This document shows, piece by piece, positions 1,783 to 19,785 of a DNA stretch of 64,000 nucleotides. Location of the stretch: the NCBI RefSeq assembly GCF_019634815.1, contig NZ_JAHCAP010000019.1, positions 1 to 64,000 of the forward strand, written 5' to 3'. How positions within the stretch are numbered: position 1 is the first letter of the stretch; the number at the start of each line of letters is the position of its first letter. The translations under genes and the position numbers were made by a program. This DNA comes from Dokdonella sp. (GTDB taxonomy: Bacteria; Pseudomonadota; Gammaproteobacteria; Xanthomonadales; Rhodanobacteraceae). The notes beneath the pieces were generated by a model that made no database searches, was not told the DNA's origin, and saw only the letters and a program-made list of their open reading frames with translations.

Positions 1783-3114
1783 ATGGACACCCAGCACCCC
1801 GACCTGCATATCCTCTATGCGGAACACCTCGCCATACTGCGCAGCCGCACCGATGCCGCATTGCAACGCGAGGGCCATGACCACCTGCTGGTCGCCGCCG
1901 GGCAGTCGCACTTTCAGTTCCTCGACGATCGCGACTATCCGTTCTGCGTCAATCCGCATTTCAAGCACTGGCTGCCGGTCTCGCGGGCGCCGGGCTCCTG
2001 GCTGATCTACACGCCGGGCCAGAAACCGCGCTTGGTATTCCTGCAGCCGCACGATTACTGGCATGTCGTGCCGGCTGCTCCCGCAGGCTATTGGGTTGAT
2101 CATTTCGACATCCAGATCATCCGCGAACCCGCGCAGGCCCGCGCGCACCTGCCACGTGATCTGGAGCGCTGCGCGATCATCGGCGAAGCCAATGCGGCGC
2201 TCGATGGCGTGGTACCGAACAATCCGTCCGGCGTGCTCGATCATCTGCACTGGTACCGCTCTTGCAAGACCGCCTACGAACTGGCACTGATGCGCGTTGC
2301 CAGCCGCCTTGGCGCGCGCGCGCATCGCGCCGCCGCGGCGGCGTTCCATGCCGGCGCCAGCGAGTTCGACATCCACATGGCCTACCTCGCCGCCGCGCGC
2401 CAGACCGACAACGAGCTGCCCTACGGCAACATCATTGCGATCAACGAACATGGCGCGATCCTGCACTACACCGACCTCGCCCACGCGCCACCGACGCAGC
2501 GCCGCTCCTTGCTGATCGATGCCGGCGCCAGCTTCCACGGCTATGCCAGCGACATCACGCGTACCCACGCGGCAGCGGACGCCGGGGAATTCCGCGAGCT
2601 CATCGAGGCCGTCGACACCGCGCAACAGGGCTTTTGCGCCAAGGTCCGCAGCGGCCAGAGCTATCCCGAACTGCATCTGCATGCGCATCAGGTGCTCGCC
2701 GGCATCCTCAAGGACCACGGCTTCATCCGCATGAGTGCCGAGGGCGCGGTCGAATCGGGATTGTCTTCGACATTTTTCCCGCACGGGCTCGGCCATCCAA
2801 TCGGCCTGCAGGTGCATGACGTGGCGGGCTTCCAGGCCAGCGACAGCGGCGGCACGATTCCACGCCCGCCCGGCCATCCCTATCTGCGCATGACCCGCGT
2901 ACTCGAAGCCGGCATGGTGGTGACGATCGAGCCGGGTCTGTACTTCATCGACCTCCTGCTCGCCCAGCTCAAGGACAAGCCACTCGCCAGGGAAGTGCGC
3001 TGGGACCGCGTGGACGCTTTCCGTCCGTTCGGCGGCATCCGCATCGAGGACGATGTGGTCTGCACCGGCGGCGATCCGGAGAACCTCACCCGCGACGCCT
3101 TCGCGCAGCTTTGA
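1783..3114 (+). CDS. pepQ: Xaa-Pro dipeptidase
   Basis: Cytosolic metallopeptidase of family M24 that cleaves dipeptides with C-terminal proline; members also hydrolyse organophosphates. It is 443 residues from ATG 1783, the length of E. coli PepQ; an in-frame TTG at 1774 is the only close alternative. The dinuclear metal ligands of the pita-bread fold are all visible in order: LLIDAGASFHGYASDITRTH (two Asp), HGLGHPIGLQVHDV (His), TIEPGLYF (Glu) and GGIRIEDDV (Glu). The N-terminal half (LHILYAEHLAILR) matches the creatinase-like N-domain. It is followed 83 nt later by mprF on the same strand. No regulatory signal is obvious upstream. Confidence 0.95.
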   Translation: MDTQHPDLHILYAEHLAILRSRTDAALQREGHDHLLVAAGQSHFQFLDDRDYPFCVNPHFKHWLPVSRAPGSWLIYTPGQKPRLVFLQPHDYWHVVPAAPAGYWVDHFDIQIIREPAQARAHLPRDLERCAIIGEANAALDGVVPNNPSGVLDHLHWYRSCKTAYELALMRVASRLGARAHRAAAAAFHAGASEFDIHMAYLAAARQTDNELPYGNIIAINEHGAILHYTDLAHAPPTQRRSLLIDAGASFHGYASDITRTHAAADAGEFRELIEAVDTAQQGFCAKVRSGQSYPELHLHAHQVLAGILKDHGFIRMSAEGAVESGLSSTFFPHGLGHPIGLQVHDVAGFQASDSGGTIPRPPGHPYLRMTRVLEAGMVVTIEPGLYFIDLLLAQLKDKPLAREVRWDRVDAFRPFGGIRIEDDVVCTGGDPENLTRDAFAQL

Positions 3115-15529: not shown

Positions 15530-15719
15530 GGGTGTCCTCTGCAGAACTCGGCAGCGCTCTTACATATTGCCTTGTTCCTATAAACGACCCCGGGATGGTT
15601 CCACCAGACTGTTGTGCAAGTCCGCCCGGAGCGGAAAGCCTTGAAGACTGGTCGACTCTCCCACCTGATCCTTGGGATCAAGGTCGTTCGATGCGCACCG
15701 GCTCAGGCGGAGGACATCT
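15530..15719 (+). ncRNA. ssrS: 6S RNA
   Basis: A ~190-nt gap between zapA and fau, the classic ssrS position. The 5' end (GTGTCCTCTGC, 15532 on) pairs with the 3' end (GGCGGAGGACATC, up to 15719) to close the terminal stem. Inside are the family's recognisable pieces: GAAAGCCTTGAAGACTG (compare GAAGCCTTAAAACTG in E. coli) and CACCTGATCCTTGGGATCAAGG, the 3' hairpin. 6S RNA mimics an open promoter and sequesters sigma70-RNA polymerase in stationary phase. The exact ends are estimated to within a few nt; the downstream T-rich stretch CTTCTTTTCTTG could help 3' end formation. Confidence 0.88.
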
Positions 15720-19415: not shown

Positions 19416-19532
19416 GGGGCCAGCTTCGCTCGCGCTGCGCTGTCCAGAATCGCTCCCGGCGATTCTGTCGAACCAAGGTCCAAACCGTCGTTTCCCCAGC
19501 CAGAAACGACAAACCCCGCTGGCGCGGGGTCG
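19416..19532 (-). repeat. tRNA-Gln-adjacent repeat, copy 1
   Basis: Begins GGGGCCAGC and ends with a GC-rich core followed by GTCGGCG. It contains the hairpin 19446-19466 (8-bp stem, loop TCCCG) and a one-sided copy (19494-19530) of the terminator arm found beside tRNA-Gln. It aligns with copy 2 at 19598-19702, with substitutions concentrated in paired positions. Confidence 0.75.
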
Positions 19533-19597
19533 GCGTCATGTTGCGACAAGATCGGGGACCAGGATTGCTCGCCCCATCCATGGGGCTCGCCCCTCTC

Positions 19598-19702
19598 GGG
19601 GCCAGCCTGCGGCTGTCCAAATTCGCTCCCGGCGAATTTGTCGAACGGGTCCGAACCGTCGTTGCCCCAGCCAGAAACGACAAACCCCGCTGGCGCGGGG
19701 TC
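19598..19702 (-). repeat. tRNA-Gln-adjacent repeat, copy 2
   Basis: Second copy of the unit at 19416-19532. Its internal hairpin (19619-19639, 8-bp stem, same TCCCG loop) differs from copy 1 at two base pairs, and both are compensated on the opposite arm. Its right end merges into the large terminator palindrome next to tRNA-Gln. Orientation is given for the tRNA transcript. Confidence 0.75.
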
Positions 19703-19720
19703 TGTCGTTTCTGGCTGGGG
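19665..19720 (-). terminator. 26-bp terminator palindrome overlapping the 3' end of tRNA-Gln
   Basis: Two 26-nt arms (19665-19690 and 19695-19720) pair at 25 of 26 positions around the 4-nt loop TGGC. The right arm contains the tRNA 3' end including CCA (19712-19720), so tRNA 3' end and terminator are mutually exclusive folds of the same transcript. Read on the minus strand, the stem is followed by no long T-run. Confidence 0.7.
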
Positions 19721-19785
19721 GACTAGGATTCGAACCTAGATAAACGGAGTCAGAGTCCGTTGTCCTACCGTTAGACGATCCCCCA
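19712..19785 (-). tRNA. tRNA-Gln (anticodon CTG)
   Basis: A complete 74-nt cloverleaf. The acceptor stem TGGGGGA pairs with TCCCCCA, the D-loop carries TAACGGTAGG, the anticodon stem ACGGA/TCCGT encloses loop CTCTGAC with anticodon CTG (glutamine), the T-arm holds GGTTCGAATCC, and the CCA end is encoded. It starts 35 nt after the rpsI stop on the same strand with no obvious promoter in that gap, so it may be processed from a rplM-rpsI-tRNA transcript. Confidence 0.96.

Follow-up and report, generated by a model that had tools for sequence, protein, structure and literature searches.

A Structured, Mobile Module with CsrA-type Loops behind tRNA-Gln in a Dokdonella Genome and Its Probable Place in the tRNA-linked Repeat Family

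Introduction

Descriptions of tRNA-linked repeats (TLRs) in E. coli go back to 1978, and to our knowledge RrA, RrB, and RrF are the only ones with a known function. The descriptions are those of Egan and Landy 1978 and Rudd 1999 (as cited in PMC8144298). RrA, RrB, and RrF are TLRs located between T1 and T2 of rrnA, rrnB, and rrnD (PMC8144298). Read-through of T1 gives an rRNA transcript from which RrB is processed. RrB binds CsrA in vitro, and replacing three GGAs, of which two lie in loops, lowered the binding strongly (PMC8144298). Deletion and overexpression of rrB had modest effects only, and these were of the same sign. The same study traced rrB only within the Enterobacteriales and predicted no CsrA binding for the 19 tRNA-operon TLRs of E. 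coli (PMC8144298).

Here we analyze two repeat units found behind a tRNA-Gln gene of Dokdonella sp., in a stretch of 64,000 nucleotides that is referred to throughout as the window.

Results

The repeat locus. In the window the tRNA-Gln(CTG) gene adjoins rpsI and is followed on the same strand by tandem units, which occupy positions 19416-19711 of the minus strand with a period of 171-173 (Table 1). In order from the tRNA, the units comprise a terminator-like hairpin, repeat 1, a second copy of the terminator, and repeat 2. The repetition is seen as a 55-nt pair (19477-19531 and 19648-19702, 96% identity) and a 35-nt pair (19439-19473 and 19612-19646, 89% identity), and both of the tandem units that a first-pass annotation had claimed beside tRNA-Gln were thus located. 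In the terminator foldback, the distal arm repeats the trailer and the tRNA 3' end in inverted form. The left flank of copy 1 also holds half a T-arm ending in GTTCGA, which is the insertion site (discussed below).

Table 1. Features of the repeat locus behind tRNA-Gln, in transcription order (window positions)
Feature	Position	Strand	Basis
tRNA-Gln (CTG), intact, upstream of the repeats	19712..19785	-	ARAGORN; Rfam tRNA
Terminator hairpin (core 19684-19701), extended to a 26-nt foldback	19665..19720	-	26-nt arms, 96% complementary
Left flank of copy 1, degenerate inverted T-arm (GGTTCGGACC)	19641..19664	-	Sequence; family flanks
Copy 1 of module X, 75 nt, four hairpins	19566..19640	-	R1 98.6 bits, E 1.8e-24; R2 E 4.7e-21; fold
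Hairpin 1 of copy 1, loop CGGGA (first-pass annotation: 19619-19639)	19618..19640	-	Sequence; covariation; fold
Hairpin 2 of copy 1	19603..19615	-	Fold; covariation
Hairpin 3 of copy 1	19589..19602	-	Fold; covariation models
Hairpin 4 of copy 1, loop C-ATGGAT-G (fits CANGGAYG)	19571..19586	-	Fold; loop tables
Copied tRNA 3' segment ATCCTGGTCCCC (tRNA reads ATCCTAGTCCCC)	19554..19565	-	Sequence
Second terminator-like hairpin (core 19512-19531) and trailer copy, between copies 1 and 2	19494..19531	-	
Degenerate copy 2 of X, without hairpin 4; hairpin 1 kept intact at 19445-19467	19416..19467	-	R1 40.5 bits, E 5.1e-8

The first-pass annotation had seen a single hairpin per repeat, with an 8-bp stem. 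The hairpin stands, but its stem is 9 bp long since an outer C-G pair forms too, and the unit itself is larger, namely a 75-nt module of four hairpins, here called X, that lies inside a copied tRNA 3' end. The shared loop was as described, reading TCCCG on the plus strand and CGGGA on the tRNA strand in both hairpins. On the minus strand the hairpin 1 stems read CAGAATCGC-loop-GCGATTCTG in copy 2 and CAAATTCGC-loop-GCGAATTTG in copy 1. They differ at the two pairs noted earlier (G-C to A-T and A-T to T-A); each change is compensated, and there is no other difference in the hairpin. The minimum-energy fold of copy 1 consists of the four hairpins (-46.8 kcal/mol, z -3.5). Copy 2 folds no better than shuffled sequences and is probably decaying.

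Elsewhere in the window, a 6S RNA (RF00013, 82.9 bits) was detected at 15533-15717 on the plus strand, upstream of a reading frame resembling 5-formyltetrahydrofolate cyclo-ligase, which is the usual neighborhood of 6S RNA. A weak RsmY match in the window covered only a terminator hairpin and was discarded.

Family identity. Direct blastn with the window repeat understated the family, and a structure model was required. Three models were used: R1, from 10 copies in the genome of origin; R2, trained on relatives of the window copies; and R3, with both end loops masked. R1 matched all four rtT repeats of E. coli tyrT (E 7e-6 to 1.6e-3), and the E. coli rrnB T1-T2 element was matched both by R2 (62.8 bits, E 2e-15) and by R3 (E 4.6e-14), the E-values of such custom models being rough. 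An Rfam search of the window copies gave no RtT match at E ≤ 1. However, the tRNA-Gln(TTG) gene of this genome is followed by two sibling copies, C8:75933 (52.3 bits) and C8:76078 (50.2 bits), that exceed the Rfam RtT cut-off of 45 bits. The window copies are homologous to RtT, yet are not filed as RF00391.

As in TLRs, the window repeats lie directly downstream of a tRNA gene on its own strand, and their repeat core is common to E. coli rrB and rtT. By definition a TLR also repeats, at its 3' end, the last 18-19 bp of the upstream RNA gene. At the end of copy 1, 12 nt correspond to the tRNA apart from one mismatch, and CCA is missing; copy 2 lacks the tRNA 3' stretch, and other family copies retain longer ones. 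We consider it nearly certain that the window repeats are TLRs. The first-pass annotation could name no known RNA family, a statement now superseded by the TLR family with rtT (Rfam RF00391) and RrA, RrB, and RrF.

Other Rfam matches were set aside. Those to sX4 (RF02223) near X were carried by tRNA-Ser itself, and those to Plastid-psbl-rps4 and Plastid-ycf2 were antisense tRNA. RF04351 and RF04354, two "plastid UTR" models, matched antisense bacterial tRNA genes and seem to contain tRNA sequence. Matches to STnc430 (RF02053) below the cut-off were seen at L123:1578-1666 and 1968-2056 (plus strand), 3' of a 5S rRNA gene and beside or overlapping X on the opposite strand; STnc430 may be an antisense reading of rrn-linked X.

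Structure and covariation. Among the 10 copies from the genome of origin, 95.7% of cells pair under the four-hairpin model, against 28-46% in slid controls, and in a set of 65 copies from the order the values are 97.2% and 31-44%. The 65-copy set has double changes at 18 of 24 pairs (0 of 500 shuffles). It contains 293 double-change cells (76.5 in shuffles) and has a covariation of 0.574 (0.171 in shuffles); because these counts are per sequence and not per event, and because the alignment was fitted to the model, the argument rests on the size of the effect and not on its exact value. The internal hairpins 2 and 3 covary as well. Selection on the secondary structure of X in many genomes, which the first-pass annotation had proposed for RNA or DNA from a single pair of hairpins, is thus strongly supported.

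Distribution and insertion rule. The 3.2-Mb genome of origin contains 17 matches (blast and structure model combined), with copies adjoining tRNA-Gln (CTG and TTG), tRNA-Ser (GGA and CGA), tRNA-Arg (CCG), tRNA-Tyr, and tmRNA. R1 matched 47 of 61 genomes of the order, that is, the genome of origin and 46 of its 60 relatives. The first-pass annotation had named the absence of further copies, or broken stems, as grounds for refutation; there are further copies both in the genome of origin and in these relatives, and their stems are kept. R2 matched 164 of 369 sampled genomes of the class and also further genomes of the phylum, mostly from one family. In two locus sets, 119 of 151 copies have a tRNA or tmRNA gene no more than 600 bases away, where a rough count would predict about 2%; the sets were picked by score, so the contexts are mostly those of best-scoring copies and the share is no census.

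Read together, the copies in the genome of origin show that X mostly has GGTTCGA directly before it and ATCC directly after it. This places the module, between GA and A, in the T-loop of an extra and usually incomplete copy of the neighboring tRNA, with the intact gene alongside. On reading the loci, an intron-like interpretation was dropped for this reason. In 82 copies near a tRNA gene, the junction left on removal of X agrees with that tRNA in at least 15 of 18 positions. Eighty of these are in sense orientation and 2 antisense: 62 are in the T-loop, 9 in the anticodon loop, 8 in the D-loop, and 1 in tmRNA, and the 2 antisense copies are in tRNA-Phe. Counted at independent loci, T-loop insertions are 47 sense and 0 antisense (p 1.4e-14), despite the palindromic TTCGAA. 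Since T-loop placement is sense-only, the structure selected in the tRNA-linked copies points to RNA. Away from tRNA loops X again mostly follows GA; in E. coli rrnB the triplet before it is GGA, within a copied 5S 3' end.

At L024:1400-1660 (G000:C24), the D-loop of a partial 5' tRNA-Arg copy is interrupted by another, shorter kind of insert (TCGAACCGGTTGCG...). About 5.4 kb from it there is an additional X together with a piece of tRNA-Arg, as if the two bounded a small island. In G052 (L066), a tRNA-Ser(CGA) copy has X in its D-loop and again in its anticodon loop, and this arrangement is repeated several times in tandem.

Mobility. One genome (G195) has X inside protein genes in both orientations with the reading frames open. 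Relative to X-free plasmid homologues from Leisingera and Roseomonas, one helicase gene has clean in-frame insertions of 25, 25, and 26 residues. At least nine copies lie inside or between genes of one region (L148, G195:C1:1267000-1273500), where the reading frames run open through the insertions. The genes of this region resemble a phage-defense-type cluster, with a PglZ/phosphatase-like and an SNF2-like helicase gene. At L149:441-520, X is inserted in hairpin 1 of another X, between GA and A. Copies also occur within another hairpin repeat (G019) and within a dispersed repeat of roughly 300 bp with inverted ends ATTGCACCAAGG/CCTTGGTGCAAT, present in seven near-identical copies in G181 (L136-L142). 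At nested, coding, and tRNA sites alike, X had inserted on the 3' side of GA, and no target duplication was seen. Since X is found in frame in protein genes and inside another X, it is, or has been, mobile at the DNA level. A plain stand-alone sRNA was dropped as an interpretation on the same two grounds.

These observations are what a selfish element would leave. Hairpins 1 and 4, with their shared GGA loop, would then mark the two ends for a trans-acting transposase that works on single-stranded DNA, of the HUH/Y1 type known from REP and IS200/IS605-derived elements. Insertion would take place 3' of GA and leave no target duplication, and tRNA loops would simply be hit often. Nesting, in-frame insertion in either orientation, near-identical dispersed copies, the loop common to both ends, and the lack of target duplication all suit this explanation. 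The Y1_Tnp domain co-occurs with X at an odds ratio of 2.5 (p 1.6e-5, uncorrected for genome size and phylogeny), but at E 1e-10 no Y1_Tnp is detected in 61 of the 164 X-bearing genomes, and an unsystematic look turned up no transposase gene flanked by X ends. The explanation also sits poorly with the exclusively sense T-loop copies, with covariation in hairpins 2 and 3, and with the binding of CsrA by RrB (PMC8144298). We regard a purely selfish element as possible but rather doubtful.

Orthologous tRNA-Gln loci. Orthologous loci were anchored on rpsI in named genomes, the closest being a Rhodanobacteraceae MAG. Seven of the named genomes have X behind tRNA-Gln (among them Rhodanobacter, two Dyella, and Arenimonas metalli) and 33 lack it; three copies occur at one locus, so that species range from 0 to 3. 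The far arm of the terminator continues as an inverted trailer and tRNA 3' end in 7 of 8 X-bearing loci (the window included) but in only 1 of 33 X-free loci (p 2.8e-6). Two template switches, one at the terminator hairpin and one at the T-arm, would yield the order forward, inverted, forward (with X).

The association of these foldback arms with X would be expected of a cis-acting processing or termination element in which X is a spacer. The copied tRNA 3' end would pair either with the preceding inverted copy, enclosing X, or with the following one, forming a long terminator, and the switch would tune tRNA-Gln read-through and 3' maturation. The forward-inverted-forward layout recurs in E. 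coli tyrT and in tRNA-Ser units. Such an element leaves unexplained the conserved GGA loops, the covarying internal hairpins, and the copies away from RNA genes, and we consider it unlikely. Less probable still, and already disfavored, is a functionless tandem duplication produced by recombination or template switching at the terminator hairpin. Copy 2 is degenerate, the copy number at a single locus varies between species as given above, and rtT copy number likewise varies between Salmonella serovars (PMC2658671), all as such an origin would have it; strong covariation and GGA conservation across distant genomes speak against it.

GGA loops. The GGA triplet in a hairpin loop is the motif recognized by CsrA. 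Copies found with GGA-containing models have GGA in the loops of both hairpin 1 and hairpin 4 in 57 of 61 and 79 of 86 cases. Because the models themselves contain GGA, R3 was built with these loops masked and copies were sought afresh. GGA was then present in hairpin 1 of 52 of 62 copies, in hairpin 4 of 52 of 62, and in both of 47 of 62, against a composition expectation of 10-13% per loop; the excess has p 7e-37 when the copies are treated as independent, which they are not fully. GGA conservation as a search artifact was set aside on this result. The loops of hairpin 4 mostly read C-A-(N)-GGA-N-G, the last N being mostly Y/R, and this is the CsrA/RsmA consensus. Copy 1 in the window has both GGA loops, CGGGA and ATGGAT; copy 2 has GGA only in hairpin 1. 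Antisense copies inside genes also retain GGA. The rtT copies of E. coli have no GGA loops.

A csrA gene is present in the genome of origin (C23:73713-73868, E 7.5e-26). Across genomes csrA and X show a weak association, with an odds ratio of 2.2 and p 0.013 before any correction for phylogeny. No csrA was found in 16 of the 164 X-bearing genomes, one of which (G072) is nominally 100% complete and has a single X with both GGAs. In five genomes X lies within about 0.2-0.8 kb of csrA (G205:C70, G342:C1, G385:C22, G192:C23, and G285:C16), probably through a neighboring tRNA-Ser gene.

Discussion

Our best reading, which we hold with moderate confidence, is that X is a mobile module kept in tRNA transcripts as a predicted CsrA-binding RNA. 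In the window, two copies interrupt the T-loop of a duplicated tRNA-Gln 3' end between GA and A, beyond the terminator of the tRNA. Leaky termination would allow part of the tRNA-Gln transcript to enter the repeat, and processing at the copied tRNA 3' end would release a short RNA. Hairpins 1 and 4 of this RNA would display their GGA loops to CsrA/RsmA, so that CsrA could be titrated in step with tRNA output. For the window copies, we infer transcription, release, and CsrA binding.

We favor CsrA binding because the GGA loops, the sense-only placement, and the parallel with RrB would all follow from it. Counterarguments are the lack of GGA in E. coli rtT, the weakness of the csrA association with its 16 exceptions, and the GGA kept by antisense genic copies; this last point suits loops that are needed for mobility. 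The loss of hairpin 4 from window copy 2 also counts against it, as do the prediction that the 19 tRNA-operon TLRs of E. coli do not bind CsrA and the modest effects of rrB deletion and overexpression (PMC8144298). Both may hold together, X being a mobile element whose RNA the host uses. More speculatively, X could be a mobile CsrA-binding RNA domain that brings two predicted CsrA sites wherever it inserts, repeatedly retained in stable-RNA transcripts as a growth-linked CsrA sponge, with its mobility rewiring the Csr network.

The TLR module, traced earlier for rrB only within the Enterobacteriales, was found here in the 164 class genomes and in a further lineage of the phylum. Its insertion follows a fixed rule, it also occurs in frame in coding sequence, and its CsrA-type loops are conserved. 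Should the CsrA interpretation be correct, many bacteria contain dispersed CsrA sponges tied to tRNA and rRNA output, and rrnB T1-T2, a laboratory sequence common in vectors, is one member of the set.

The closest known counterparts are RrA, RrB, and RrF. They share with the window copies the four-hairpin module, insertion after GA in the copied 3' end of a stable RNA, the layout terminator-module-terminator, and GGA in both end loops. Hairpin 1 of rrB (CAAATCCGC-CGGGA-GCGGATTTG) is one compensated pair apart from that of window copy 1. However, rrB sits in a copy of the 5S rRNA 3' end whereas the window copies sit in a tRNA-Gln copy, and in the window the 3' copy is shorter and imperfect, and the second unit is degenerate. 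RtT (RF00391, from the E. coli tyrT operon) shares with them tandem units behind a tRNA and the order inverted tRNA 3' end plus TTCGA, X, tRNA 3' end, differing in the GGA loops as described.

AaHKsRNA22 (RF02902) aligns over the hairpins of X in relatives with 22.4 bits (L045) and 35.2 bits (L112), against a cut-off of 39.8 bits, so that a relationship to X is only suggested. The comparison suggests that Rfam RtT, and perhaps AaHKsRNA22, are parts of one family. The Rickettsia palindromic elements resemble X in being short palindromic elements in frame inside protein genes (PMC10969869); they are about 150 bp long and found in Rickettsia, whereas X is about 75-84 nt long, has GGA loops, and favors tRNA loops. 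CsrB, CsrC, and RsmX, RsmY, and RsmZ have GGA in hairpin loops, as X does, and titrate CsrA. Those RNAs are encoded by stand-alone sRNA genes and carry many GGAs, whereas X is a dispersed two-site module in stable RNA transcripts.
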